Under the pieces are notes generated by a model. That model did no database searches and was not told the DNA's origin. It saw only the letters and a list, made by a program, of their open reading frames with translations. Shown here in pieces: positions 4,437 to 40,957 of a stretch of DNA of 40,957 nucleotides (position 1 is its first letter; the number at the start of each line of letters is the position of its first letter). Both the position numbers and the translations under genes were made by a program. This DNA is from Clostridia bacterium (lineage in GTDB: Bacteria; Bacillota; Clostridia; Christensenellales; Borkfalkiaceae): positions 1-40,957 of the forward strand of contig JAFQGG010000048.1 of assembly GCA_017415505.1 (NCBI GenBank), in the 5' to 3' direction.

Positions 4437-7400
4437 ATGAGAAAAAAACTCTACTATCAGGTGCTAGCACTCTCGCTGGCGGGATTCATGGCAAGCTCTA
4501 TCGCCGCCACGCAATTCCTTTCGAGCGCAGACGCAAAGGACCTCGTTTCCTCCTCGAAGAAGGAAGAAAGCACGATCAACTTGAAAGACCTTGAATTGGA
4601 CACCCGTTCCATCACGCAAGGGCTTTTGGACGATTCGGTTGCGTATAAGCTTCCCGACGCGGTGAAGGATAACGACGAAATCTCCGTAATCGTGAAAATG
4701 GAAACGGAATCCCTGCTCGACGCGTACAACGACGAGGGTAGCAACGGTACGGTGGCGCAGTTCGTAGGAACGAGAAAAGCGCAAAGCACCGTTTCGACGA
4801 TTGCAAAAAGACAGGAATCGCTTTTGAAACAGTTGAAAAAAGCGAAAATCCCCTATACGCTCGGCAGAACGTACAGCGTCTTGTTCGGCGGTTTTGAAAT
4901 CAACGTAAAAGCGAAAGATTTCCAAGCGGTGAACGAAGCGCTCGGCAATTCGGTCACGACGATCGTGGGCGAAGTGTACGAAGCGGCGCAAGCGACGAGC
5001 TCGCAACAAATCGTCACCAACGACGTAAAGGTATACGACACGGGTATTTTCGACAGCTCCGACTCCAAATACGACGGTTCGGGTACGGTCGTTGCCGTTC
5101 TTGACACGGGTTACGACTACACGCACACCGCGTACAGCGCGGAAGCGCCCTATTTCACCTCCGAAAACCTCGCGTTCGACGAGGACTACGTAGACGACCT
5201 CATTAAAAACGGAAGACAGGTTTCCGTTTACGGCAAGACGGAACATATGCCCCTTTCCGCCGCGGAAACGACGGCGGGCTTGACGGTTGCCGACGTGTAC
5301 ATGAACGACAAGATCCCCTTCGCGTACGACTACGCGGACAAGGATACCGACGTATATCCCATCCGTAGCGAGCACGGTACGCACGTTGCGGGTATTATCG
5401 CGGGTAAAGACGACACGATCACGGGCGTTGCGCCCAACGCGCAGCTCGCGCTTATGAAAGTATTCTCCGACACGAAAGACGGCGCGAAGACCTCGTGGCT
5501 TCTCGACGCGTTGGAAGACTGCGTAGTGCTCGGCGTGGACGTTATCAATATGTCCCTCGGTAGTTCCTGCGGGTTTAGCCGTGACGACGACAAAACGGAA
5601 ACGGCGAAGCTTTACGATATTATCAAAGAACAGGGTATTAGTTTGGTGGTAGCGGCGTCCAACGACTACAACTCCACCTTCGGTTCGACCAAGAACGGTA
5701 ACCTCGGTCTTACCTCTAACCCCGACAGCGCGACGGTAGGCTCGCCCTCCACTTACGACGCTTCCCTTTCGGTTGCGTCCATCAAGGGCGTCTATACGCC
5801 GTACCTCACCTACGGCGACCGTATCATTTACTTCAACGAAGCGACGGACGGTAGCGGTGAACAAAAGAAATTCGTAGACGAACTTCTTCCCGAGGGCGTA
5901 AACGAAAAGGTTTACGACTACGTAACCGTGCCCGGTATCGGTCTTTCCGCCGACTACGGCAAACTCGACGTAACGGGCAAAATCGCACTTATCAAGCGCG
6001 GTACGAACACGTTCGAAGAAAAAGCGCAAATCGCGGCGAGAAAAGGCGCGGCGGGCGTTATTATCTACAACAACGTTTCGGGTGATATCGGCATGACGGT
6101 CGGTAACGTAAAAGCCGCGGTGTGCTCTATCTCGCAGGTAGACGGCGAAGCGCTTGCCGCCAACCCCACGGGTCAAATCAAGCTTTCCCGCGAACAGTTG
6201 GCAGGTCCTTTCATGTCCGACTTCTCTTCGTGGGGTCCTACCCCCAACCTCGGCATTAAGCCGGAAATCACCGCGCACGGTGGCGACATTCTTTCCGCCG
6301 TTCCCGGTCAAAAATACGACAGACTTTCGGGTACTTCGATGGCTGCGCCCAACCAAGCGGGCGTAACCGCGCTCGTGCGCCAATACGTAAAAGAAACGTT
6401 CCCCGAACTTTCTCCCGTAGAAGTGACGGCGCGCGTAAACCAACTCATGATGTCCACGACGGATATCGCGTACAACACCAACGGCTTGCCCTTCGCGGTA
6501 AGAAAGCAAGGCGCGGGTCTTGCGAACCTTACCAAGACCACCTCGACGACGGCGTACCTTACGACTTTTGGTAAAGACGGCGCGGTTATGGATAAGACCA
6601 AGTTGGAACTTGGCGACGACGCGGAGAAGGCGGGCGTTTATACCCTGACCTTCGCGATCAACAACTTCGGTACGACCAACCTTTCCTTCCTTGCCGACGC
6701 AATCGTAATGACGGAAGGCGTAAGCGAAGTGAAGACGCACCAAGGCGACACGACGGTAACGGAAAAGGGCTACACGCTTGACGGCGCGTCCGTGAGCGTG
6801 GTGAGCGTGACGGGCGAAGGCGCGTCGAACAGCGGTAGCACGATCACGGTTGCCGCAGGCAAAGTGGCGACGGTAACGATGCGCGTCACCCTTTCCGACG
6901 AAGACAAGGCGTACCTCGACGCTTCGTTCGAGAACGGTATGTACGTGGAAGGTTTCGTAACGCTCAAAGCGACGAACGGCGGGGTGGACCTCAACGTGCC
7001 CTACCTCTCCTTCTACGGCGATTGGACGCAAGCCCCCATCTTCGACCTTGACTATTTCGAAACGAACAAGGACGAATTGGACGACGCAATCGACCCCTTG
7101 GATAAGACGATGGCGGACGCGTATCCGACCACGCCTATCGGTTCGCTCTACGACGACTATATCAACTACCTCGGCGGTTTCTACTTCATACAAAACCCCA
7201 CCACGACGCAAATCCACGCGCAAAGAGAACACATTTCCCTCTCCAACCAAACGGAGGCGGTAAACGGAATCTACGGCGTATACGCAGGTCTTTTGCGCGG
7301 TGCGAAGAAAGTAGTGACGACGATCACGGACGAAGTGACGGGCGAGGTAATCTTCGAAAAGATTAACTACGACGCGAGAAAATCGCACAACGGTGGCGGG

Positions 7401-10400
7401 GCGATTTACCCCTCGGCGATCGACCTCGATTTCCATATCGCGGACTATAACTTAAAGAACAACACCCGCTACACGGTAAAATTGCAAGCGTACTTGGACT
7501 ACGGCGACGGCGGTTTGGAAACGAACGTGAGAAACGTATTCGAATTCCCCTTCGTAACCGACTTCCAAGCGCCCGTATTGGAAAACTGCGAATTCTACAC
7601 CGAGTACGACAAAGCGAGCAACAGCAACCGTTTGTACGCAAAATTGAGCGTTTACGACAATCATTACGCAATGGCGTTGAACACGGGTAATTTGTATGTC
7701 GATACGGTAGACGGAACGCCTACCCTTCAATTCAATTCGTTTAGCAATTATCCCACGCAAGTATATTCGAGCTTCAACTCCACGACGACGGTCACAGTTG
7801 AATTGACCGATCATCTCGATAAGTGCCTTTCCTCGTTCGATCACAAAGAAGGCAACACGGGTAGCTCGTTCGTCGTATTCTGCTACGACTACGCAATGAA
7901 CCAAGCTATGTACGAAATCGAGATTCCCGACGACGTACGCGCGTTATATTTTAAGGAAGAATCGATTACGATTAGCCCGAACGAAACGTATAAGCTCGCG
8001 CCCGAGGTATTCCCTGCGGGTCAATGGGCGGAAACCGTCGTCTATTCCACGACGGATACGAACGGCGAAGTAATCCGTATCGTTGACGGCAACGTGATCG
8101 GCGTAGCGGCGGGTACGGCAACCGTAACCGCAACGAGCAAGGCGTATCCCGACGCGAAAGCGACCGTGGAAGTCACGGTACTCGGTCCAAGCGACCCCGG
8201 GTATAGAAGATACGACAAACCCGTTATCGTAAACAGCTCCTTCACGGTAGATAGTTATACGACTTTGAAAGCGTATTACGCGCTCTCCTCGCAGGATAGA
8301 GATATCGGCGAAGCGGGACACACGCGTCAACTTTCGGCGGCGAAAACGCTTTCCATGTTCCCTTCGGAATCGGTACAGCTCAACTACGATTACAAACCTT
8401 ATTTCGAAGACAGCGTAACCGTGAAATTCGTTTCCGGTAACGAAAATATCGTAAAAATCGACGACAACGGCATCGTAACTGCCGTAGGCGAGGGCGTTTC
8501 CTCCGTTTCCGTGCAATTGCTCATGGACGGCAAGCCCACCTACTTCACGCAAAACATCACCGTTTCGGTAAAAAATCCTTACGATTCGAGATCGGGGTAT
8601 CTCTACTCGTATAAAGGCAACGGCGGAGTCGTCGAGATTCCCGAATACCTCACCGTTCGCCACATTATGCAATACGCATTCTCCAACTACGAATACGTAC
8701 TTAAAGGTCCGGAAGACGAAATCTCCGAAGAAGATCCTTCCAAGACCAAGCCCATGTATATCGGCGACGACACGATCGAAGAAGTGATTATTCCCGAGGG
8801 CGTGGAAGATATCGGCGCGTACGCGTTTGCGGGTCTTACCGCTTTGAAATCGGTAACGCTCCCCTCGACGCTCGCCAAGATTTCGGAAGGCGCGTTCGAA
8901 GGCTGTACTTCCCTCGAAACGGTAAACGGTTTGAAATACGTACAGTTCGTCAACCAAACGGCGTTCAAGGACTGTAAGCTGGAAGAAGTCGAGTTTGACA
9001 ACATGGTCGCGATCGGTAACTACGCGTTCGCGAACAATAAACTCGAAGAGGTGGAATTGCCCACCACGGCACAATCGCTCGGTATCGGCGCGTTCGAAAA
9101 CAACCCTCGTTTGAAAGAAGTGACGATCAACGCGACGGAAGTGAAAATCGGGCAAGGCGTGTTCCGTAATTGTAGCAACCTCAAAGCCATTTCCATCAAC
9201 GCGGCGGTTATCCCCAACGAATCGTTCAAGGGCTGTTCCTCGCTCACGACGGTAACGCTCGGTTCGTCGGTATCCGTTATCGGCACGAACGCATTCGCGG
9301 GCACGAAAGTGCAAAAATTCAGCGTGAAGACGGGAAATAAGGCGTTCAAAGCAGGCGACAATCAACAGTATATTTACACCAAAGACGGCGCGACGCTCGT
9401 ACTTGCCGCCCCCGTACTTCCGGAGAATATCACGGTCACCGCAACGAAGATTGGCAAGAACGCGTTCTCGGGCAACGCGACCGTGAAGACGGTATCCATG
9501 CCCAACGCAACTCTTTTGGAAGACTACGCGTTCTATCAAGCGACCAAGCTTCAAAGCGTGACGGCTAGCAATCTCACCAAGATCGGCAATAGCGCGTTCA
9601 ACGGATGTACTTCGCTTATGACGGCAAACGTAGGCACGCTTACGCAGGTAGGCAACTACGCGTTCGCAAACACCTACCTCAACACGCTTCCCGCGTTCGA
9701 CGAAAACTTGAACGCAATCGGAAACTATGCGTTTGCGGGCACGAAGATTACGGGCGTAACCCTTCCTAATAATATATACGTGGGCGCGGGCGCGTTTGCG
9801 GAATGTAACAACCTTTCTACGGTAACGATCGGTGAAAACGCAACGATCGGCGACGGCGCGTTCCAAACCTCGTACGACGATAAGTTCAACTTCCAAGGTC
9901 AGCTTGCTTCCGTTACGATCGGCGACGGTGCAACGATCGGCAACGAAGCGTTTGCCAACGCAACCAAATTGCAAACGGTAACGCTCGAAGGAAGCGCAAC
10001 GATCGGCGACCGCGCGTTCTTCAACTGCTCGGGCTTGAAAAATATCGACCTTTCGTCCGTAACGGAGATTGGCGACGAAGCGTTTGGCGGGCTCGTGCTG
10101 TACAGAAGCAACGGTTCAGGACAAATCGTCGAACTTATCTATATGAGCGCGGCAATGACGAGCGTAGACCTCTCCTCTACGACCAAGCTTGGCGCGGGCG
10201 CATTTGCAGGAGCGCAAAACCTCGAAACCGTAACGGCGATCCACGAAGACTTGACGGAAATCCCCGCCAACGCGTTCATTACGACGGCGTTGACCTCGTT
10301 CGATTTCTCGGGCATAACCTCGATCGGCGACGGCGCGTTCGCGAACACCAAGTTCACTTCCGTAAACCTCGGCAAAGTAACTTCGATCGGTGACGGCGCG

Positions 10401-11669
10401 TTCCAAGCGGCGGAATCGCTTACGACGGTGAATAAGCTCTCGCAAGTCAAGAATATCGGCGCGTACGCGTTCGCGAACACCGCGCTTACCTCCGTTCGTT
10501 TGACAAACGCGGAATCGGTGGGCGACCTCGCGTTTGCGGAAACGCAACTCAAATCGGTCAACTTCGGCGACAAGCTTACGGATATCGGCGAAAACCCGTT
10601 CGCGGGCACGCAAATCCCCCTCTTCGAATCGAAGAAGGACGTAGAGTTCAACGACGAAGTATATAAAGAAACGACTTACACCTACGACGTCAACGACTCG
10701 TTGAAGGTAATCGACGGCGCGCTGTACAAAAAGACGGCGAACGGGAACTTGGAGCTTATCACCTATCCTTTGGGCGATACGGCTACGCAATTCACCGTTG
10801 CCGACGGCACGGTTCGTATCGGCGCGTACGCGTTCTCGGGTAGCACGCTCGTGAAAGTAGAACTTCCCAAGTCGCTCCGTGCAATCGGGCACAAGGCGTT
10901 CTTCGGTTGTGAAAAGCTTAGCGTCGTCGTGTTCCATAGCATCGAAGCACCTTTGCTCGAAGAGGAATACGATACGAACTATCAACTTATCACGAACGTT
11001 CCGCATAAGAACACGGGCTATATCAACACCACCACGAACGAACCCATCGAGGGCTTGGATATCGTTCCCTACTACATTTGGGACGTCGCTTACAGCCTCG
11101 AAGCGTTCTTCTACGGCGCGAACTTCACGAACTATATCGGGCACTTCGATTCCTCGATCACGCTCGTTCGCCCGAAGAACGGTAAGCTGTACGATTCGTT
11201 CATTTACGATCAATACTTCCAAACGACCGTACTTGCAAAAGCGGAAGCGGAAGACGCTACGCTCGTGGCAATCGAAGCCATTTCCAAATTGCCTACGATC
11301 ATCACTCTTGAAGACGAAGCGTTGGTAAAAGCGGCGCGCAACGCGTTTAGCAAAGTCACCGACTACGACCAAATGCAAATCGTCCGCGAGAACAACCTCG
11401 AAAAACTTACCAACGCGGAAAAGGAAATCGAGTATCTCAAGAGCAAGCAAGAACAACCCGAAGAACCCCCGCAAGACGACAAAGACGAACCCGTAGTCAA
11501 CGAAAAGGATTACACGCTCGTCATCGTGCTTTGCAGTATCGGCGGTTCGCTCATTATTGCGGCGGGCGTCGTAGTAGGTTTCCTGCTTTTGAAAGGCAAC
11601 TTCTTCAAAAAGAAGACCGCGCCCGTTCAAGAAGAGGAAGCAACGGAAGAATTTGAAGATCAAGAATAA
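4437..11669 (+). CDS. Giant cell-surface S8 (subtilisin, lactocepin-like) protease with BspA leucine-rich repeats
   Basis: 2410 residues. Order: signal peptide (about 1-33); propeptide region (about 60-195); S8 catalytic domain with Asp223 (VLDTG), His313 (HGTHVAG), oxyanion Asn409 and Ser634 (LSGTSMAAP); a PA domain inserted before the serine (about 495-585), as in lactocepins and C5a peptidases; an Fn3-like region ending in VPYLSFYGDW (about 735-860), also typical of that group; two Ig-like Big_2 regions (about 1172-1250 and 1305-1378); a long run of BspA-type LRR_5 repeats (about 1440-2160, recurring IG..AF and VTLP phrases); a charged coiled stretch; one membrane helix (about 2359-2387); and an acidic tail. 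There is no LPXTG, so the helix is the likely anchor. The role is cutting extracellular proteins, with repeats for binding. It starts a co-directional run into the opp transporter. The catalytic set is intact. Confidence 0.92.
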   Translation: MRKKLYYQVLALSLAGFMASSIAATQFLSSADAKDLVSSSKKEESTINLKDLELDTRSITQGLLDDSVAYKLPDAVKDNDEISVIVKMETESLLDAYNDEGSNGTVAQFVGTRKAQSTVSTIAKRQESLLKQLKKAKIPYTLGRTYSVLFGGFEINVKAKDFQAVNEALGNSVTTIVGEVYEAAQATSSQQIVTNDVKVYDTGIFDSSDSKYDGSGTVVAVLDTGYDYTHTAYSAEAPYFTSENLAFDEDYVDDLIKNGRQVSVYGKTEHMPLSAAETTAGLTVADVYMNDKIPFAYDYADKDTDVYPIRSEHGTHVAGIIAGKDDTITGVAPNAQLALMKVFSDTKDGAKTSWLLDALEDCVVLGVDVINMSLGSSCGFSRDDDKTETAKLYDIIKEQGISLVVAASNDYNSTFGSTKNGNLGLTSNPDSATVGSPSTYDASLSVASIKGVYTPYLTYGDRIIYFNEATDGSGEQKKFVDELLPEGVNEKVYDYVTVPGIGLSADYGKLDVTGKIALIKRGTNTFEEKAQIAARKGAAGVIIYNNVSGDIGMTVGNVKAAVCSISQVDGEALAANPTGQIKLSREQLAGPFMSDFSSWGPTPNLGIKPEITAHGGDILSAVPGQKYDRLSGTSMAAPNQAGVTALVRQYVKETFPELSPVEVTARVNQLMMSTTDIAYNTNGLPFAVRKQGAGLANLTKTTSTTAYLTTFGKDGAVMDKTKLELGDDAEKAGVYTLTFAINNFGTTNLSFLADAIVMTEGVSEVKTHQGDTTVTEKGYTLDGASVSVVSVTGEGASNSGSTITVAAGKVATVTMRVTLSDEDKAYLDASFENGMYVEGFVTLKATNGGVDLNVPYLSFYGDWTQAPIFDLDYFETNKDELDDAIDPLDKTMADAYPTTPIGSLYDDYINYLGGFYFIQNPTTTQIHAQREHISLSNQTEAVNGIYGVYAGLLRGAKKVVTTITDEVTGEVIFEKINYDARKSHNGGGAIYPSAIDLDFHIADYNLKNNTRYTVKLQAYLDYGDGGLETNVRNVFEFPFVTDFQAPVLENCEFYTEYDKASNSNRLYAKLSVYDNHYAMALNTGNLYVDTVDGTPTLQFNSFSNYPTQVYSSFNSTTTVTVELTDHLDKCLSSFDHKEGNTGSSFVVFCYDYAMNQAMYEIEIPDDVRALYFKEESITISPNETYKLAPEVFPAGQWAETVVYSTTDTNGEVIRIVDGNVIGVAAGTATVTATSKAYPDAKATVEVTVLGPSDPGYRRYDKPVIVNSSFTVDSYTTLKAYYALSSQDRDIGEAGHTRQLSAAKTLSMFPSESVQLNYDYKPYFEDSVTVKFVSGNENIVKIDDNGIVTAVGEGVSSVSVQLLMDGKPTYFTQNITVSVKNPYDSRSGYLYSYKGNGGVVEIPEYLTVRHIMQYAFSNYEYVLKGPEDEISEEDPSKTKPMYIGDDTIEEVIIPEGVEDIGAYAFAGLTALKSVTLPSTLAKISEGAFEGCTSLETVNGLKYVQFVNQTAFKDCKLEEVEFDNMVAIGNYAFANNKLEEVELPTTAQSLGIGAFENNPRLKEVTINATEVKIGQGVFRNCSNLKAISINAAVIPNESFKGCSSLTTVTLGSSVSVIGTNAFAGTKVQKFSVKTGNKAFKAGDNQQYIYTKDGATLVLAAPVLPENITVTATKIGKNAFSGNATVKTVSMPNATLLEDYAFYQATKLQSVTASNLTKIGNSAFNGCTSLMTANVGTLTQVGNYAFANTYLNTLPAFDENLNAIGNYAFAGTKITGVTLPNNIYVGAGAFAECNNLSTVTIGENATIGDGAFQTSYDDKFNFQGQLASVTIGDGATIGNEAFANATKLQTVTLEGSATIGDRAFFNCSGLKNIDLSSVTEIGDEAFGGLVLYRSNGSGQIVELIYMSAAMTSVDLSSTTKLGAGAFAGAQNLETVTAIHEDLTEIPANAFITTALTSFDFSGITSIGDGAFANTKFTSVNLGKVTSIGDGAFQAAESLTTVNKLSQVKNIGAYAFANTALTSVRLTNAESVGDLAFAETQLKSVNFGDKLTDIGENPFAGTQIPLFESKKDVEFNDEVYKETTYTYDVNDSLKVIDGALYKKTANGNLELITYPLGDTATQFTVADGTVRIGAYAFSGSTLVKVELPKSLRAIGHKAFFGCEKLSVVVFHSIEAPLLEEEYDTNYQLITNVPHKNTGYINTTTNEPIEGLDIVPYYIWDVAYSLEAFFYGANFTNYIGHFDSSITLVRPKNGKLYDSFIYDQYFQTTVLAKAEAEDATLVAIEAISKLPTIITLEDEALVKAARNAFSKVTDYDQMQIVRENNLEKLTNAEKEIEYLKSKQEQPEEPPQDDKDEPVVNEKDYTLVIVLCSIGGSLIIAAGVVVGFLLLKGNFFKKKTAPVQEEEATEEFEDQE

Positions 11670-20849: not shown

Positions 20850-20875
20850 GGACTCCCCCACGGAGTCCTTTTTTT
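20850..20875 (+). terminator. Terminator of the protease-opp locus
   Basis: GGACTCC (20850-20856) pairs with GGAGTCC (20862-20868) around a 5-base loop, followed by a run of seven T. It lies 8 bases past the last stop. Confidence 0.9.
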
Positions 20876-20905
20876 ATGTCTGCGTGGGCAGGCTAAGCCT
20901 TTCCC

Positions 20906-20931
20906 AAAAACTTAACCATGGTTAAGTTTTT
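20906..20931. repeat. CCATGG palindrome, copy 1
   Basis: A 26-bp perfect palindrome with core ACTTAACCATGGTTAAGT flanked by A-runs and T-runs. As RNA it could fold as a stem with a CATG loop and U-tail in either direction. Confidence 0.95.
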
Positions 20932-21002
20932 AGAAAAGGGCTGGTGAGCGCAAAACAGCCGTCGAAACGGCGGCAAGATACACCGACCAAGAGGGATAGA
21001 TG

Positions 21003-21176
21003 ATGGCTATATCGAAGCCCGAAAAGAATTTTCGCCTACAAAATACGGTGCAATCCGTCGCAAATCGTTCGGTTACATACCCCGCGGGTATGCGCCCTCG
21101 CGATTTGCTCGTCTTGCTTGCATTTTCCAACGGCGAAATGCTACGCGAATCCATTTCGGGTTTCGACATAACCATT
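21003..21176. repeat. Fold-back insert inside module 1
   Basis: About 174 bases that interrupt a module-1 copy. Three nested inverted pairs share one centre near 21084: inner CATACCC/GGGTATG (21076-21092), middle GCAAATCG/CGATTTGC (21060-21067 and 21101-21108), and imperfect outer ends ATGGCTATATCGAAGCCCG versus ATGGTTATGTCGAAACCCG on the opposite strand. This looks like a MITE-like or cruciform element. It also contains a 58-codon plus-strand ORF (21003-21179) that I regard as chance. Confidence 0.7.
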
Positions 21177-21181
21177 TAGGT

Positions 21182-21211
21182 GCAGGATTATCCTGCCCAT
21201 GGTTAAGTTTT
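21182..21211. repeat. GCAGGA-TTA-TCCTGC hairpin joined to a half palindrome
   Basis: The left half of the palindrome is replaced by a 6-bp hairpin with TTA loop (21182-21196); the right half CCATGGTTAAGTTTT (21197-21211) is intact. The same junction appears at 21412-21441 with the stem GCAGGC/GCCTGC. Confidence 0.85.
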
Positions 21212-21212
21212 A

Positions 21213-21302
21213 ATGAAATTCGGCTACGCCAAATGAAATCCGCCCGTAGCGGGTGAAATTGCTTGCGCAATGAAATTTTGCTTCGCAAAATGGTGGCACA
21301 AT
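21213..21302. repeat. Module 3: TGAAAT-spaced mini-hairpins
   Basis: A series of short inverted repeats separated by TGAAAT: CGGC-TAC-GCC, CCGC-CCGTA-GCGG, ATTGC-TTGC-GCAAT and ATTTTGC-TTC-GCAAAAT. No coding potential. A single hairpin of this type also occurs at 40630-40642 in block C. Confidence 0.75.
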
Positions 21303-21332
21303 CCAAAAACTTAACCATGGTTAAGTTTTTGG
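21303..21332. repeat. CCATGG palindrome, copy 3 (30 bp)
   Basis: Perfect 30-bp palindrome centred at 21317.5, the core extended outward by CC/GG pairs. Confidence 0.95.
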
Positions 21333-21425
21333 GAAAAGGTTTGTGAGAGCAAAAAAGCCGTCAAAACGGCGGTAAGATACCCCGAAACGGAGTGATAGAT
21401 AAAATTAGGTGCAGGCTTAGCCTGC
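21333..21425. repeat. Module 1, complete copy
   Basis: Contains AAAAAAGCCGT-CAAA-ACGGC, which on the minus strand is a small terminator-like stem followed by six T, then GATAGATAAAA, TAGGTGCAGG, and a GCAGGC-TTA-GCCTGC hairpin. Related copies are at 20932-21196, 21622-21663 and, inverted, at 38143-38196 and 38217-38312. Confidence 0.85.
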
Positions 21426-21441
21426 CCATGGTTAAGTTTTT
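21426..21441. repeat. CCATGG half palindrome, copy 4
   Basis: CCATGGTTAAGTTTTT with the left arm replaced by the GCAGGC/GCCTGC hairpin of module 1. Confidence 0.85.
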
Positions 21442-21595
21442 AGAAATACGGGTCAAGGGACGAAGTTCCTTGTGGGTTGTAAGGGTGAAACCCTTACGCC
21501 GACGGCAGTCCCGTTCGAAGAACGGAAGATAAGCCCAAGACAAGCAATCGAAGATTGCGCCCCACGCGAAGCGTTATTCCCGTCAGGGAAAGCCG
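21442..21595. repeat. Module 2: chain of GAA-loop mini-hairpins, copy A
   Basis: Ordered hairpins: 21454-21472 (8-bp stem, one G-T pair, GAA loop), 21479-21497 (8 bp, GAA), 21511-21525 (CCGTTC/GAACGG, GAA), 21544-21558 (GCAATC/GATTGC, GAA), 21564-21574 (ACGC/GCGT, GAA), 21577-21590 (TTCCC/GGGAA). Bases 21448-21525 are identical to 38345-38422. Confidence 0.9.
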
Positions 21596-21621
21596 AAAAA
21601 CTTAACCATGGTTAAGTTTTT
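21596..21621. repeat. CCATGG palindrome, copy 5
   Basis: 26-bp perfect palindrome centred at 21608.5, between module 2 and a shortened module 1. Confidence 0.95.
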
Positions 21622-21647
21622 AGAAAAAGAGTTGGTGAGAACAAAAA

Positions 21648-21686
21648 AGCCGTCAAAACGGCGACGAATTTCTTCGTCGCCGTTTT
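21648..21686 (-). terminator. Terminator of the radC-cysK operon
   Basis: A 14-bp perfect stem (21655-21668 with 21673-21686, loop TTTC). Read on the minus strand, the GACGGC just past it is followed by six T. The distal arm merges into the start of a module-1 copy, so repeat and terminator share sequence. Confidence 0.85.
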
Positions 21687-21689
21687 CAT

Positions 21690-22607
21690 TCATTCAAAAA
21701 GCGGTGTGGATAAATACCTGTCCCCGCTGTCGGGCAAAACCGTAACCACGGTTTTGCCCGCGTATTCCGCCCGTTTGGCGATTTCGATCGCGCCGAATAC
21801 CGCCGCGCCCGAGGATATGCCCACGAACAATCCCTCCGCTTGACAAAGCGCGCGCGCGGTTGCGTACGCCTCTTCGTCCGTCACGGCGATCACCTCGTCG
21901 TATACAGCCGTATCCAGCGTTTTCGGCAAGAAATTCGCGCCGATTCCCTGTATGCCGTGCGCGCCCGAAACTCCCTTGCTAAGCAACGGCGAGGACGCGG
22001 GTTCTACGGCAATCACGCGCGTTTGCTTGCTTCGTTCTTTGAGGTATCTCCCCACACCCGTAATCGTACCGCCCGTGCCCACGCCCGCCACGAACGCGTC
22101 GATTTTTCCGTCCAACGCCCCGTAAATTTCAGGGGCGGTCGTTTGATAATGCGCTTTGGGGTTCGCGGGATTCTCAAACTGCCCCGCGATAATCGCGTTC
22201 GGCGTTGCGTTTAAGAGTTCTTCCGCCTTTTCCACCGCGCCCTGCATACCTTTTTTCCCGTCGGTAAGCACGATTTGCGCGCCGTACGCGCCAATCAACT
22301 TTCTACGCTCGACGGACATGGTTTCGGGCATCACGATCACCGCTTTATACCCCCGCGTCGCGCAAACGAGCGCAAGTCCTATGCCCGTATTGCCCGAGGT
22401 CGCCTCGATTACCGTGCCCCCCTTTTGCAATCGCCCCGACGCTTCCGCGTCGTCTATAATCGCCCTTGCCACGCGGTCCTTAATCGACCCGCCCGCGTTC
22501 AAACTCTCAACCTTTGCAAACAGTTTCGCTTTCAAGCCGAATTTCTTTTCAATTTTCTCCAACCGCACGAGGGGCGTGTTTCCAATCCCTACACTTTCTA
22601 ATCGCAT
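21690..22607 (-). CDS. cysK: Cysteine synthase (O-acetylserine sulfhydrylase)
   Basis: 305 residues, full length for CysK. The PLP-binding lysine is Lys43 in GGSIKDRVA; the substrate/phosphate loops are EATSGNTGIG (about 69-78) and GVGTGGTITGVG (about 180-191); SSGAAV lies near the end. It makes L-cysteine from O-acetylserine and sulfide in the cytoplasm. The ATG follows AAAGGAG inside the end of the phosphatase gene (3-base gap). It is the last gene of a five-gene operon. No T-box or S-box leader was seen nearby, so control is through the operon promoter before radC. CysM is an alternative isoform name. Confidence 0.93.
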   Translation of the reverse strand: MRLESVGIGNTPLVRLEKIEKKFGLKAKLFAKVESLNAGGSIKDRVARAIIDDAEASGRLQKGGTVIEATSGNTGIGLALVCATRGYKAVIVMPETMSVERRKLIGAYGAQIVLTDGKKGMQGAVEKAEELLNATPNAIIAGQFENPANPKAHYQTTAPEIYGALDGKIDAFVAGVGTGGTITGVGRYLKERSKQTRVIAVEPASSPLLSKGVSGAHGIQGIGANFLPKTLDTAVYDEVIAVTDEEAYATARALCQAEGLFVGISSGAAVFGAIEIAKRAEYAGKTVVTVLPDSGDRYLSTPLFE

Positions 22608-27533: not shown

Positions 27534-27547
27534 CGACAAAAAAATCA

Positions 27548-27582
27548 CGCGGGTGGCGAATCTTCGCCACCCGCGCTTTTTT
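27548..27582. terminator. Bidirectional terminator between pepV and the LRR lipoprotein
   Basis: CGCGGGTGGCGA (27548-27559) pairs with TCGCCACCCGCG (27564-27575), loop ATCT, with T-runs on both strands. The same stem recurs in inverted orientation at 31343-31377. Confidence 0.9.
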
Positions 27583-31342: not shown

Positions 31343-31377
31343 CGCGGGTGGCGAAGATTCGCCACCCGCGATTTTTT
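31343..31377. terminator. Terminator of the small XRE gene
   Basis: CGCGGGTGGCGA/TCGCCACCCGCG with loop AGAT, followed by six T. It is the exact reverse complement of the hairpin after pepV. Confidence 0.9.
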
Positions 31378-34447: not shown

Positions 34448-36130
34448 ATGGATGCTATTAAAGAATTTTTCAACAAATGTATCACGGAGGCAAAAGGCTT
34501 GGTAAACGACGGAATCGCGTACGCGAAAGCCTACCCTTTCCACGCCGCGTTGCTCGCCGGACTCGCCGCGTTTATCCTTATCATCTTAATCGTGATTATC
34601 TCACTTTCCGTCAAGCGCAAAAAGGCGAAAAAACGCCTTGCCGCGAAAGAAGCCGCCGAAAAAGCGGAAGCGGAAGCTTTGCAAGCCAAGCAGGCGGAAG
34701 AGGAAAAAGCGAAAGCCGAAGCCGCTAAAAAAGAGGAAGAACGCAAAGCCGTTGAAGCAAAATTGGAAGCGCAACGCATAGCGGCGGAAAAAGAAGCCGA
34801 AGAAAAGGCTCTCGCCGAGAAAGCGCAAAAGGAAGCCGAGGAAAAGGCTCTTGCCGAAAAAGCGCAAAAAGAAGCTGAGGAAAAGGCTCTCGCCGAGAAG
34901 GCGCAAAAAGAAGCCGAGGAAAAGGCTCTTGCCGAAAAGGCGCAAAAGGAAGCTGAGGAAAAGGCTCTTGCCGAAAAGGCGCAAAAGGAAGCTGAGGAAA
35001 AAGCTCTTGCCGAAAAGGCGCAAAAGGAAGCCGAGGAAAAGGCTCTTGCTGAAAAGGCGCAAAAGGAAGCTGAGGAAAAGGCTCTCGCCGAGAAAGCGCA
35101 AAAAGAAGCCGAGGAAAAGGCTCTTGCCGAAAAGGCGCAAAAGGAAGCCGAGGAAAAGGCCCTTGCTGAGAAGGCGCAAAAGGAAGCCGAGGAAAAGGCT
35201 CTTGCCGAGAAAGCACAAAAGGAAGCTGAGGAACAAACCGATAAAGAAACGGCAACGGCAGTAGCGGAAGAAACGGTTGAAACGAACCTCTACGACGAAT
35301 TGAAAGACGCCGAGGAAGAGGACGATATTTGGTACGACGAAAACGAAACGGATAAAGCGGCGAGATACAAAGGCAAATGGCAAATCTACCGCGTAGTAAC
35401 GGACGAAGCGTACACGAGCGACGATATGTATTATTTCGAGTTGCACGCGTCGAACGGGGAGCGTTTGCTTTCGAGCGAGGAGTACACTTCGTACAACGGC
35501 GCGCTCCGCGGTATCGAAACGCACAAAACGAATATCTTGAAAGGAAATTTCAAGATTACCCTTTCCAAGAAAGGCGATTACGTATTCAAACTGCTTAGCG
35601 GTAAAAACATGTTGCTTTGCATGGGCGAGAACTATCCCACGAAAGCGCGTTGCGAGCGCGCGATTGAATCGACGAAGCGGTTCGCGGAAAGCGCGGTAAT
35701 CGACGAAAACGTGCAAGACCACGTTATCAAGATCCCCCACGAAGACGAAACGGACGTACAGCCTTTGCCAGAAGGATATAACGGAAAATGGATCGTGGGT
35801 TCGAAAATCGGTCCGAACGGCGAAAAACTCTTCTTCTTCGAACTGTTTGCCAACAACGGCGAAAAGTTGCTTGCAAGCGAGGATTACACCACCTATATCG
35901 GCGCGGTAAACGGTATTCAAACGCACAAGACGAACATACAAAAAGGTAATTTCCGTATTTCGCTCACCAAGCGCGGGGATTATATCTATAAGCTTCTCAA
36001 CGGCAACGGACAACTGCTTTGTCTCGGCGAGCATTATAGAACCAAACGCCTTTGCGTGAACGCGGTGGAGTCGGTAAAACGCTTTGCGCTCAACTCTCCC
36101 CTGCTCACCGATTCGGAGCATTTGAAATAA
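34448..36130 (+). CDS. Membrane coiled-coil protein with two DUF1508 domains
   Basis: 560 residues. An amphipathic start, one membrane helix (about 32-54), a basic stop-transfer stretch (KRKKAKKRL), then an Ala/Glu/Lys coiled coil (about 58-262) whose core is eleven perfect 13-residue repeats EAEEKALAEKAQK (residues 116-258). An acidic linker leads to two DUF1508 (YegP-type) domains at about 307-415 and 445-545, each with KGKW or NGKW, FEL.A.NGE.LL.SE.YT, and ET/QTHKTN (e.g. ASNGERLLSSEEYTS). DUF1508 domains are small beta-rich units of unknown function. Topology suggests a membrane anchor with a long cytoplasmic or surface rod ending in the domains; side cannot be told. No signal peptide. 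Confidence 0.82.
   Translation: MDAIKEFFNKCITEAKGLVNDGIAYAKAYPFHAALLAGLAAFILIILIVIISLSVKRKKAKKRLAAKEAAEKAEAEALQAKQAEEEKAKAEAAKKEEERKAVEAKLEAQRIAAEKEAEEKALAEKAQKEAEEKALAEKAQKEAEEKALAEKAQKEAEEKALAEKAQKEAEEKALAEKAQKEAEEKALAEKAQKEAEEKALAEKAQKEAEEKALAEKAQKEAEEKALAEKAQKEAEEKALAEKAQKEAEEKALAEKAQKEAEEQTDKETATAVAEETVETNLYDELKDAEEEDDIWYDENETDKAARYKGKWQIYRVVTDEAYTSDDMYYFELHASNGERLLSSEEYTSYNGALRGIETHKTNILKGNFKITLSKKGDYVFKLLSGKNMLLCMGENYPTKARCERAIESTKRFAESAVIDENVQDHVIKIPHEDETDVQPLPEGYNGKWIVGSKIGPNGEKLFFFELFANNGEKLLASEDYTTYIGAVNGIQTHKTNIQKGNFRISLTKRGDYIYKLLNGNGQLLCLGEHYRTKRLCVNAVESVKRFALNSPLLTDSEHLK
34793..35221 (+). repeat. 39-bp tandem repeat, 11 copies
   Basis: Eleven in-frame copies, period 39 bases, identical at the protein level and differing only at synonymous third positions (GCC/GCT, GAG/GAA, CTC/CTT). 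Copy number is open to slippage. Confidence 0.97.
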
Positions 36131-36178: not shown

Positions 36179-36205
36179 ACCGCTCGCAAATGCGAGCGGT
36201 TTTTT
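36179..36205 (+). terminator. Second terminator hairpin
   Basis: ACCGCTCGC/GCGAGCGGT, loop AAAT, then six T. Its T-run touches the stop codon of the minus-strand DUF2207 gene. Confidence 0.8.
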
Positions 36206-38117
36206 ATCTTGCGCCGCCGCCGCCACCGCCGAAACCGCCACCGCCGAATCCACCGAAGCTACCGCCACCGCCACTTTTGCCTACCGACCCGCCTTTGGGT
36301 TGCGGGCGCACCATCGCCGACGCCATGGAACGGGAAATAGCGCGGTGCATCACATAGCAATCGAAAGTAGACACGTGCGTGCCCGTGCTCCACGCGGGCG
36401 GGGGCAAAAGAATGTTTTCAAACTTCTTTTCCCACTCGTCGGTCACGCCGAGTACCTGCGCGTACGGAAGGACCTTGTAATACAGCTGGGGATTCTCTTC
36501 CAGCATGAATTTGATTTTGTCCTCTTCCGTCACCAAAATGAAGTCCTTAAAACCGAGAATTTCCCCGAGCGTATTCGTGTATTCTTCCGTACGGGAAAGA
36601 ATATTCCGCGTAATGAATAAAGGCGCAAACGCGAATACGCAAATAAGGATTTTCTCAAACTCCGTCGTGAAGTGTTGAGCAAAGAACAGACAAAAAATCA
36701 ACGAAAAGACGAGCGCAATCACGATTTGCGCGATAAGATACCCCTTGCCGTTTTTATCTTTTTTGCCCTTATAACGATAACATTCCCGTATATATCCGAG
36801 CACGAGCATCACGATTGCGGGCAAGGCAAACGCTACGCCGAGCATATATTTATAAGTCGTACCCAAACGGAAAAAACCGAGTAGAAACGCGGATAAAAAG
36901 GCAAACGCTACGCAAAGCACTCCGCCCAAAAGATACCCCAAAACGGAACGCTTTTCGAACATTTTCACGGGCGCAACCTGCGCTTTCGCACGGTCCACGT
37001 GCGCGTAGAACTTATATTGTAAATCGCAAACGCGCACCGCGCTACCCGATTTGAATAAACCGTTAAAAAGGGTAATTTCATAGGGCGCGCCCGAAATTGC
37101 GCCTACGCGTTTTATCAACACGGGATCGTCGGGATTGCTCAAATCAATGGATAAATATCCCCTATGCGCAAAGTAATAGACCATCGAGGTCACGTCCTCG
37201 TTGTCCACCGTGCCGTCCAAAAGTTTGCCCATTTGCATGGGAGTCATATCGTCGGGGGCTTTGAGATTGACGGTGGTAATCATATCCCGATGCTTGCGCA
37301 TAAAAGTCAAGCATACGAACGCCAACCCCGCAACGACGAGTCCGCCGAGCAAAATCAACCCGCTTCCGCCCGTAAACAAACGGGTAAACAGATACGGTTC
37401 AAATCTACCGTCCATGGTAAAATCGAGGGTAATGCCCTCCGTAGCGAATTCGTCGTATTTGCTCACGTACACGTAATCGAGCAAATCGGTGGAAAAGGTA
37501 AGGGTCTTTTTGTCGTCGGAAAGCTTTTTGTTAATGGAATTATCGTTCGCCGTCGAGCCGTACCCCACGTAGGTTTTGCAATCCTCTAACTCGACCTCGT
37601 AAGGGAAATGCACGGTCGCGGAAACGTTGTGCAATTCCGTGGTGTACCCAAAAGGTATCACGTCGATTTTCATACCGTCCGACGAGGTAGCCGCGCCCCG
37701 ACCGTTTTCCATGGTATAATAAACGTCGTAGGTCCACTTCGCGTTCTTCGTCACACCGCCGATACAGTTGATATCGAAAAAATCGTCGGTGTCGGGATTG
37801 TCCTCTACGGTATAGCGGAAATATTCGTTCCCCGCACAGGAAGCGGATATATCGTAATACCGCGCCGTTTCAATGGGCAAAGAACGGTAGAACATGGTAA
37901 GCCCCGACCGCAAAAAAGTAACGGTAATACGCTCGTGCACGCGCACGCTTCTGTCTTTGGAGATCGTCATTTCCACGTCGTATTCGTCAATGGATATGTA
38001 CGAGCTACCCGACGCGCTCGCGGGAAGCTCCGTTTTCGGGAGCGGTGCAAACGCGAATACAAAAGCCAAGCAAGCGAAGCAAAGCGCAAGAACGGTTTTT
38101 ATGAATTTATTTTTCAT
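36204..38117 (-). CDS. DUF2207 (YciQ-like) membrane protein
   Basis: 637 residues from the ATG at 38117. That choice gives a clean signal peptide (KTVLALCFACLAFVFAFA, to about residue 31); an in-frame ATG at 38210 lies inside a CCATGG palindrome and would add 31 unlikely residues. Extracytoplasmic DUF2207 domain (about 35-235: YDVEMTISKDRSVRVHE, FRSLP-like YRSLPIE), one membrane helix (about 245-265), a cytoplasmic part with MTPMQMGKLLDG and VTSMVYYFAHRGYL, further helices (about 385-480), and a C-terminal Gly-rich tail typical of the family. Function unknown. DUF2207 genes often follow lemA, as here, but the pair is separated by repeat block B. Confidence 0.85.
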   Translation of the reverse strand: MKNKFIKTVLALCFACLAFVFAFAPLPKTELPASASGSSYISIDEYDVEMTISKDRSVRVHERITVTFLRSGLTMFYRSLPIETARYYDISASCAGNEYFRYTVEDNPDTDDFFDINCIGGVTKNAKWTYDVYYTMENGRGAATSSDGMKIDVIPFGYTTELHNVSATVHFPYEVELEDCKTYVGYGSTANDNSINKKLSDDKKTLTFSTDLLDYVYVSKYDEFATEGITLDFTMDGRFEPYLFTRLFTGGSGLILLGGLVVAGLAFVCLTFMRKHRDMITTVNLKAPDDMTPMQMGKLLDGTVDNEDVTSMVYYFAHRGYLSIDLSNPDDPVLIKRVGAISGAPYEITLFNGLFKSGSAVRVCDLQYKFYAHVDRAKAQVAPVKMFEKRSVLGYLLGGVLCVAFAFLSAFLLGFFRLGTTYKYMLGVAFALPAIVMLVLGYIRECYRYKGKKDKNGKGYLIAQIVIALVFSLIFCLFFAQHFTTEFEKILICVFAFAPLFITRNILSRTEEYTNTLGEILGFKDFILVTEEDKIKFMLEENPQLYYKVLPYAQVLGVTDEWEKKFENILLPPPAWSTGTHVSTFDCYVMHRAISRSMASAMVRPQPKGGSVGKSGGGGSFGGFGGGGFGGGGGGAR

Positions 38118-38196
38118 CGTTTCTCTCACAATATTTATTTTCGGGTCGCCACAACGCCCTTTTGACAGCCTGTTTGCTCTCACGAACCTAATTTCT

Positions 38197-38216
38197 AAAA
38201 ACTTAACCATGGTTAA
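38197..38216. repeat. CCATGG half palindrome, copy 6
   Basis: AAAACTTAACCATGGTTAAG, with the right T-run replaced by the GCAGGC-TAA-GCCTGC hairpin of inverted module 1. Confidence 0.9.
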
Positions 38217-38312
38217 GGCAGGCTAAGCCTGCACCTAGTTTTATCTATCATTCTCGATCGGGTTACCACACCGCCGTTCCGACAACTTGTTTGCTCTTAC
38301 CGACCTATTTTC
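38217..38312. repeat. Module 1, inverted copy
   Basis: Read on the minus strand it shares GATAGATAAAA, TAGGTGCAGGCTTAGCCTGC and GTAAGAGCAAA with the copies in block A. The GCCGT/ACGGC stem is degraded here. Confidence 0.8.
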
Positions 38313-38314
38313 CA

Positions 38315-38338
38315 AAAACTTAACCATGGTTAAGTTTT
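38315..38338. repeat. CCATGG palindrome, copy 7
   Basis: 24-bp perfect palindrome centred at 38326.5. Confidence 0.95.
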
Positions 38339-38515
38339 GGAAACACGGGTCAAGGGACGAAGTTCCTTGTGGGTTGTAAGGGTGAAACCCTTACGCCGAC
38401 GGCAGTCCCGTTCGAAGAACGGCAACAAGCCCCACAAAAAGCAACCGCAGGTTGCGCTTTACGCGCAGCGTTATCCTCATCAGAGGACGACGGACAAGCT
38501 AATTTTATACCTATC
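38339..38515. repeat. Module 2, copy B
   Basis: Hairpins at 38351-38369, 38376-38394 and 38408-38422 are identical to copy A. Next come 38441-38455 (GCAACC/GGTTGC, loop GCA), 38461-38471 (ACGC/GCGT, loop GCA) and 38474-38487 (TCCTC/GAGGA). The last three keep the fold of copy A while changing stem or loop bases. Confidence 0.9.
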
Positions 38516-38517
38516 CC

Positions 38518-38541
38518 AAAACTTAACCATGGTTAAGTTTT
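38518..38541. repeat. CCATGG palindrome, copy 8
   Basis: 24-bp perfect palindrome centred at 38529.5, flanked by CCC and TGGG. Confidence 0.95.
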
Positions 38542-38636
38542 TGGGCTTTCCCGACGGGAGTTTACTAACCGTAAACGAGCAAGGAAAAACGCAAGCTCGA
38601 CGACGAAATACAAAGCGGATTCTCCGTTTTACATGG

Positions 38637-40585: not shown

Positions 40586-40650
40586 TCGTTTTTCTCCTCT
40601 TTTCGTATATCGTTTTTCGCGGATTTCACTCGGCGTAGCCGAAGTTCATT

Positions 40651-40674
40651 AAAACTTAACCATGGTTAAGTTTT
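40651..40674. repeat. CCATGG palindrome, copy 9
   Basis: 24-bp perfect palindrome centred at 40662.5. Confidence 0.95.
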
Positions 40675-40739
40675 TATTTTGTCTTAAAAAGCCGACTCTA
40701 CGCACAGTAGAGCTGCGTGTTTGGGGGCGGTTTTTATGG

Positions 40740-40773
40740 ATTCCAAAACTTAACCATGGTTAAGTTTTGGAAT
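40740..40773. repeat. CCATGG palindrome, copy 10 (34 bp)
   Basis: The longest copy: 34-bp perfect palindrome centred at 40756.5, extended by TTCC/GGAA. Confidence 0.95.
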
Positions 40774-40944
40774 TGTGGGTAAAATTCGCCTTATCGTCGT
40801 CCTCTAACGAGGATAACGCTTCGCGTGAGGGGCAACCTACGGTTGCCTGACTTTGGCATACTTCGCCTAACGGCGCGCTTGACAGCGGGTCTTGGGCTTC
40901 GCGCCCAAACCGCGCAAGGAACTTCGTCCCTTGACCCTTGTTTC
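40774..40944. repeat. Module 2, inverted and diverged copy C
   Basis: On the minus strand: first hairpin (40915-40933) identical to copies A and B; the next two are replaced by TTGGGC/GCCCAA; then GCAACC-GTA-GGTTGC (40832-40846), ACGC-GAA-GCGT (40816-40826) and TCCTC/GAGGA (40800-40813) in the same order as copy B. Confidence 0.85.
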
Positions 40945-40957
40945 AAAAACTTAACCA
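40945..40957. repeat. CCATGG palindrome, copy 11 (cut by window end)
   Basis: Left arm only: CAAAAACTTAACCA reaches the last base. Confidence 0.75.

Follow-up and report, generated by a model that had tools for sequence, protein, structure and literature searches.

Three intergenic blocks and their modules

The stretch of DNA analyzed here (the window; 40,957 nucleotides) is contig C44 of the draft genome of a Clostridia bacterium (G000; 1.82 Mb in 54 contigs, 93.9% complete, 3.06% contamination). The copies of one palindrome in it are confined, as the first-pass annotation had stated, to three blocks (about 20876-21690, 38137-38627 and 40618-40957) that are built from a small set of modules, recurring in both orientations and joined at this palindrome, designated P1 (Table 1). 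The eleven palindrome copies counted in that annotation correspond to eight matches to an 18-mer, two half copies and a further one truncated where the contig ends. With up to three mismatches allowed, the 18-mer has eight matches in the window (seven exact, one with a single mismatch), a number reached by none of 100 dinucleotide shuffles. The description of the blocks as non-coding holds in general, with the caveat that the furthest ATG of a predicted ORF (36204-38210, minus strand) lies within the P1 at 38202-38217; the recognized domain of this ORF begins only at residue 73. Comparison of the window with known RNA families returned no match at gathering level, and the region of block 1 (20850-21690) presents eight terminator-like sites against 1.7 expected, one of which is the upstream gene's own.

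Outside these blocks, the window encodes a 2410-aa protein (4437-11669) that may be a surface protease destined for export, as it combines subtilase and PA domains with Fn3-like, Ig-like and BspA-type leucine-rich ones. A 39-nt unit is repeated head to tail over 663 nt (34666-35328; about 17 units) inside an ORF (34448-36130) whose protein matches DUF1508 in four stretches, and a near-identical long hairpin (ACGCGGGTGGCGAA...) occurs twice, at 27541-27575 and 31343-31377.

Table 1. Components of the three mosaic blocks of the window, with the basis of each assignment.
Feature	Position	Strand	Basis
Block 1: P1 joint palindrome CTTAACCATGGTTAAG	20911..20926		18-mer match
Module A, long form, with insert M, ending in P2	20928..21196	+	module profiles
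Insert M, resembling a MITE-like repeat of congeners	21002..21175		BLAST, ends by eye
P2 hairpin GCAGGATTATCCTGC	21182..21196		P2 pattern
Half P1 overlapping P2 (CCTGCCCATGGTTAAG)	21192..21207	+	16-mer mismatch scan
Module C (ATGAAAT hairpin string)	21209..21307	+	module profiles
P1	21310..21325		18-mer match
Module A, short form, P2 end at 21411-21425	21326..21425	+	profiles and P2 pattern
Half P1 overlapping P2	21421..21436	+	16-mer mismatch scan
Module D (multi-hairpin)	21438..21600	+	module profiles
P1	21601..21616		18-mer match
Truncated module A, into terminator-like hairpin	21618..21678	+	profiles, terminator scan
Block 2: truncated module A	38137..38201	-	module profiles
Complete P1, directly beside P2 (38218-38232)	38202..38217		18-mer match
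Module A	38218..38318	-	module profiles
P1	38319..38334		18-mer match
Module D, longer 3' tail	38335..38521	+	module profiles
P1	38522..38537		18-mer match
Part of module F, adjoining 3' end of LemA-family gene	38539..38627	+	profiles, domain search
Block 3: truncated module C	40618..40654	-	module profiles
P1	40655..40670		18-mer match
Module B, 78 bp	40671..40748	+	module profiles
P1	40749..40764		18-mer match
Module D (variant 2) with 3' tail	40765..40949	-	module profiles
P1 cut by contig end	40950..40957		module-end reading

Searches of the genome and its relatives revealed that the repeat is not restricted to these three blocks, in agreement with the dispersed element proposed in the first-pass annotation. 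The 14-base core of P1 (TTAACCATGGTTAA) has 101 matches in G000, spread through intergenic DNA, and none in the 60 relatives searched (36 congeners and 24 genomes of other families); its reversed control has none in G000. Seven of the 101 copies lie on contigs C51 and C53, which duplicate parts of C45 and C19 (>99.97% identity, with one mismatch each over the compared parts) and are likely strain variants or assembly duplicates, so that the number of distinct copies is about 94. The joint hairpin P2 (GCAGGMTWAKCCTGC) is present in 68 copies in G000 and in none of 40 relatives searched, 24 congeners among them, while its reversed control gave a single match, in G021. An exact P1 20-mer matched once outside the lineage, in a Bacteroidales record; no module was seen by eye in the 300 bases around it, and we treat this match as chance, with about 0.2 expected in the 257 billion bases searched. 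Viral contigs contained no match to the 20-mer, and the exact P1 18-mer was absent from the published literature searched.

Repeat-bearing regions were analyzed in 36 stretches, namely the window and 35 others selected because they match P1 or a module; together they contain 99 of the 101 P1 copies. Most counts refer to 34 of the stretches (225,194 bases, with the window and without duplicates): the stretches from C51 and C53 (L075, L076) were excluded from module-end, conservation, block/ORF and joint counts, and included in P1 location lists, block-edge reading and module hit counts. The species is represented by this one draft genome, whose contigs break within repeats. Modules A, B, C, D and F are short, non-coding and hairpin-rich (about 78-170 bp, or about 270 bp where A contains insert M). 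Profiles grown from seed copies, with hits dropped when a better hit overlapped more than half of them, identified 74 instances of A, 34 of B, 45 of C, 46 of D (including its variant, E), 39 of F and seven of M, duplicate contigs counted. The stretches contain 42 P1-holding blocks of 16-1070 bp (median 560), in which modules A, B, C, D and F are linked through P1; one of these blocks is a lone P1. Genes were called on both sides of 24 blocks, in tandem (18), divergent (4) or convergent (2) arrangement; for the remaining 18, most of them at contig ends, no gene was called on one of the sides. With genes called by a longest-ORF rule rather than taken from annotation, only one of 98 P1 sites falls within a called ORF of 120 aa or more, namely a 145-aa ORF that overlaps repeats; the other 97 lie outside such ORFs.

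Evidence for joints formed inside the palindrome

Modules B, C and D carry terminal inverted repeats (AAAACTTAACC/GGTTAAGTTTT), and the 3' end of A is P2 instead. Among the 98 P1 sites of the 34 stretches, 76 could be assigned a module end on both sides, yielding 19 kinds of joint, and the other 22, with one side unassigned, add eight further kinds. The commonest joints are B3-C3 (15) and A5-B5 (12), indicating that a C-B-A composite recurs. The T-run beside the P1 arm is five Ts long at B5 (23/23), D3 (10/12), A5 (27/37) and D5 (11/18) and four Ts long at C5 (14/14), B3 (24/26) and C3 (19/26); its length is not uniform at every end, as A5 and D5 show. That T-run length tracks the module end means that each end mostly keeps its own arm and that joints form inside P1, and the observations thus support an exchange point within the palindrome. 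Insert M occupies about the same point within A at six distinct loci with differing neighbors, which suggests that A(M) was copied and then acquired new joints. M matches repeats present in several congeners (loci L036-L039, L041 and L042), which by eye resemble a MITE of about 180 bp with GGCTCTG-type ends.

These observations partly support the earlier proposal of mobile units that insert at each other's ends. In its favor are the ends' own T-runs, the joints within P1 and the changing neighbors of A(M); against it, no target-site duplication was seen by eye at block edges, no enzyme was found and no rearranged strain was seen. Furthermore, at several block edges the outer P1 arm and its T-run are kept beside DNA that matches no module, so that plain insertion of a unit with inverted ends is insufficient. 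Movement between strain variants was considered and rejected, since the duplicate contigs are alike: C51/C53 and C45/C19 present the same arrangement where compared, and no movement was observed.

The half copies follow a general rule. A scan for the P1 16-mer with up to four mismatches recovered 92 exact sites, 10 with one mismatch, none with two, 27 with three and three with four, against means of 1.4 sites with three mismatches and 7.6 with four in five sets of mononucleotide shuffles. All 27 three-mismatch sites in the 34 stretches are P2-P1 hairpin joints, extending to the genome the earlier claim that a missing palindrome arm is replaced by a specific hairpin; because P2 overlaps P1, only three arm bases differ at these joints. 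The 56 A copies that reach the 3' end run into a half P1 (23) or a full P1 (5), or abut other modules or DNA (28).

P1 itself varies less than the modules do, by 0.6% per base (102 sites with at most one mismatch) against 9-21% deviation in module profiles, a range that takes in truncated copies and, for B, hits on both strands. All 10 substitutions fall in the central four of the 16 bases, six in the AT pair and four at the adjacent C/G, and the outer six bases of each arm are unchanged. Across 22 full-length copies of B, deviation amounts to 1.4% and 2.3% in the P1 cores on either side and to 10.3% in the sequence they enclose. P1 columns deviate more in the other alignments (13% for A; 18% and 7% for C; 5% and 42% for D), which we put down to copies with another neighbor at that position. 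Conservation extends to P2, the D hairpins and the B palindrome, so that low variation is not special to P1 and hairpin-templated correction stays a rival.

Such correction is part of an alternative in which the blocks are neutral hairpin arrays, produced by slippage, template switching and homologous recombination with no dedicated enzyme, the arms being kept alike by correction on the hairpin and some hairpins perhaps also ending transcription. The conserved D hairpins and B palindrome fit this account, as do the excess of terminator-like sites in block 1 and the P2 variable pair, which is C..G or A..T in 48 cases and mixed in one (among the 49 of 68 sites listed, under a pattern that allowed only A/C and G/T). 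So do D-type arrays in congeners that are devoid of P1. In 10 stretches of congener G006, matches to the D profile (about 160 positions) begin at position 7-22 (at 64 in one) and extend no further than 152; several of them are partial, and the outermost bases on the P1 side are missing. G006 also contains a fragment of A (54-99) that bears a P2-like hairpin, whereas its 10 stretches have no recurring perfect palindromic 14-mer and the P1 arm pattern CTTAACCNNGGTTAAG is absent from the genome. D-type sequences are present outside the family as well, in G044. D cores and an A fragment without P1 suggest that module D and part of A are older than their P1 ends, as far as these alignments indicate. 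Neutral arrays nevertheless seem an unlikely explanation: four of the 10 P1 changes are one-sided, yet the outer six bases of the arms are constant, and the T-runs place the joints within the 16-bp core, not at arbitrary points along the homologous sequence.

A probable feo operator with the same arms

A BLAST match upstream of feoA in congener G018 was the starting point for comparing P1 with single-copy sites in the genus. The pattern CTTAACCNNGGTTAAG occurs 107 times in G000, exactly once in each of 15 of the 36 congeners and not at all in the other 21, nor in the 24 genomes of other families; its reversed control is absent from all. The arms of the single-copy site (CTTAACC-NN-GGTTAAG) are those of P1, and all 15 congener sites lie just upstream of feoA, at the promoter of feoAB (ferrous iron), preceded by TATAAT in 14 cases and by TATACT in the remaining one. 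In 12 of the 15, the contig with the site also carries a gene with a PF01325 (DtxR/MntR-family) domain at a distance of up to about 1.2 kb, and the encoded protein combines PF01325 with PF02742 in all three examined. The nearest solved chain to the congener repressor is an MntR (one examined), and NCBIfam MntR and DtxR models match it below their cut-offs (two examined). As in P1, AAAA directly precedes the site in 12 of 15 congeners; on the 3' side, where P1 has Ts, the flank is mixed or rich in A, and the full match to P1 is therefore on the 5' side only. The center varies in congeners (GC, AA, GT, GA, AC, TC), and G000 copies are nearly all AT. Among congeners without an exact site, three of three read carry one-base variants at the same place. 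Judged from its position and conservation, CTTAACC-NN-GGTTAAG is thus probably the feoAB operator to which a DtxR/MntR-family repressor would bind in this genus, and most module ends in G000 are operator-like arms. Searches of literature titles and the beginnings of abstracts for DtxR/feo operators and for binding-site-carrying or sponge repeats returned no match.

That the same arms form this probable operator makes the earlier suggestion of protein-bound joints more likely, by sequence identity. Congener feoA promoters (L104, L105, L183-L185) have another operator-like dyad immediately 5' to the -35-like box, and the promoter thus seems to be flanked by two sites. A homology between module B and the feo promoter region, proposed by eye from a common TTTTTATTTTG string, was dropped because the string is inverted and of low complexity.

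FeoA (PF04023) was not detected in G000 and is present in 33 of 36 congeners; among 29 high-quality genomes, G000 is the only one without it. A congener DtxR query, to which other congener DtxR proteins are about 65-70% identical, had no match in G000. Two weak PF01325 hits (3.9e-6 and 2.5e-5) both reach the Pfam cut-off, but their nearest NCBIfam models are MarR-like and DeoR/GlpR-like, and searches with the congener query, PF01325 and NCBIfam thus gave no convincing DtxR in an assembly that is 93.9% complete. Nor did the PF01325 search yield any hit better than 1e-6 in congeners G002, G006, G012, G022 and G030. The gene order ruvB-queA-dtxR-feo is found in nine of 11 congener stretches, the other two presenting, respectively, neither dtxR nor queA before the contig end and a dtxR without adjacent queA. 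In G000, ruvB-queA is followed on a continuous contig by a P1 block and then by genes resembling rbgA and rnhB, indicating that a mosaic block has taken the position from which the operon has disappeared. Congeners G006, G022 and G030 (72-86% complete) also lack FeoA and yet have no P1-type site, so that loss alone does not cause the expansion.

One way to read the constant arms is as a live regulon, in which the P1 copies act as operators, tuning genes or serving as a sponge, and are recognized by a DtxR-family repressor missed by the assembly or by a replacement protein. Arms that stay constant while the center drifts are expected of a bound dyad, a gene can be missing at this level of completeness, and 18 tandem and four divergent gene pairs flank the 24 blocks with both neighbors called. 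This reading is nonetheless quite improbable: neither FeoA nor a convincing DtxR was found, a block occupies the ancestral locus on a continuous contig, and P1 sits within arrays of hairpin modules.

We favor instead a species-specific intergenic mosaic, akin in form to the NIME of Neisseria, whose joints are probably former feoAB operators, and assign it a probability of about 0.6. That P1 descends from the feo operator is suggested by its identical arms and 5' flank, by the conservation of a single copy in congeners and by the absence of the operon. The low variation of P1 and the D cores of G006, which lack the outermost P1-side bases, also favor this reading. Two module ends (AAAACTTAACC) meeting around a central AT would make P1, and exchange inside it, whether by a recombinase or transposase or by recombination and slippage, would join modules either way round and spread them through intergenic DNA. 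The operon would have gone from the ancestral locus and the operator-like ends multiplied to about 100, an order of events and a mode of movement that we infer. A fuller scenario, in which a captured feoAB operator became a module end, its copies titrated the repressor and so linked the spread to loss of dtxR-feoAB, and module shuffling now holds the arms, is tentative, and its titration step is speculation. Against the former-operator reading stand the 21 of 36 congeners without an exact site, the mismatch between the congener 3' flank and P1, the congeners G006, G022 and G030 with neither FeoA nor a P1-type site, the outer P1 arms kept beside module-free DNA, the mixed T-runs at A5 and D5, the conservation of P2 and of the module hairpins, the absence of any observed movement and the enzyme searches reported below.

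Resemblance to the operator could alternatively be a coincidence, P1 being the terminal inverted repeat of MITE-like units that share a transposase and integrate beside one another's termini, separated by 2 bp (AT); insertion next to like ends with a short spacer follows an IS30-like logic. Inverted ends that keep their own arm and mostly their own T-run, arrays that share joints and the failure to find a convincing cognate repressor in G000 are all consistent with this. Coincidence remains doubtful, given that the one site conserved in the genus agrees with P1 at seven plus seven arm bases and in the 5' AAAA, a given 7-base arm being expected to match by chance about once in 4^7 (with the number of possible operators uncounted). 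Outer P1 arms also persist beside module-free DNA, and no transposase with such ends was found among the few families searched.

Candidate enzymes and known systems

Searches of G000 for the Y1_Tnp and Phage_integrase families identified no recombinase or transposase tied to P1. Y1_Tnp is represented by one full gene (157 aa) and one fragment. They look derived from an IS200-type element with its own hairpin ends (by eye), unrelated to P1 and P2, and another end of this element, also with its own sequence by eye, adjoins the lone P1 at C3:24334. Five genes encode tyrosine recombinases (Phage_integrase), three of them adjacent on C12, and neither P1 nor P2 was found in the fetched loci of the five. 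The three adjacent genes (C12:87995-90484; L092, L094, L095) lie on the same strand, in an arrangement reminiscent of a "recombinase in trio". An autonomous element bounded by distant P1 copies was also rejected, the ORFs named by eye in seven inter-P1 segments including no transposase; presumed genes among them are, for example, queA, ruvB, clpX, hslU, topA, ftsY, smc, rnc and plsX.

REP/BIME systems consist of palindromic units in intergenic mosaics and are associated with RAYT (Y1) transposases. The first-pass annotation had recognized this logic in the window, and the mosaic organization, the intergenic spread and the palindromes at joints stand. Membership is not supported, because the Y1 gene found sits in an element with ends unrelated to P1/P2. 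An ordinary REP/BIME family moved by a RAYT, to which the interspersed palindromic units and the presence of a Y1_Tnp gene and fragment would lend themselves, is rejected as the origin as far as the one full Y1 gene found is concerned, and is highly improbable overall. G000 further differs from REP/BIME in that its joints, rather than its modules, bear the shared palindrome.

Mosaic intergenic repeats are known, the origin of their shared joint sequence usually not. Here, among 61 genomes searched, the multiplied form is found only in the one in which operon and repressor were not found. If the proposed origin is true, an operator can turn into material for repeats once its regulator is lost, or titration by a repeat that spreads can disrupt a regulatory circuit.

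With MITEs the G000 mosaic shares the terminal inverted repeats of modules B, C and D. With the congener feo operator it shares the arms and the 5' AAAA, the congeners having one exact copy with a variable center and G000 having 107 that are mostly AT. Pneumococcal BOX, RUP and SPRITE are, in the account given by PMC3049150, small repeats that cluster and insert into one another, BOX being composed of boxA, boxB repeats and boxC. The G000 modules resemble BOX, so described, as small, modular, clustering repeats, and differ from it in joining in 19 kinds via one palindrome and not in an A-B-C order. The closest known architecture is that of Neisseria NIME/dRS3. As far as PMC3898611 sets it out, NIME combine a short palindrome with several non-coding repeat families of 30-160 bp in intergenic arrays of 200-2700 bp, with many copies per genome, and the palindrome dRS3, ATTCCC(N8)GGGAAT, is present in almost 700 copies and is a known phage integration site. 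Measured against that account, G000 is alike in its modules (about 78-170 bp, or about 270 bp for A carrying M) and its intergenic blocks (16-1070 bp), and differs from dRS3 in its palindrome, CTTAACC(N2)GGTTAAG, which has 107 copies in an unrelated genome and arms that are probably those of a metalloregulator operator; the mosaic is thus NIME in form, not by sequence.
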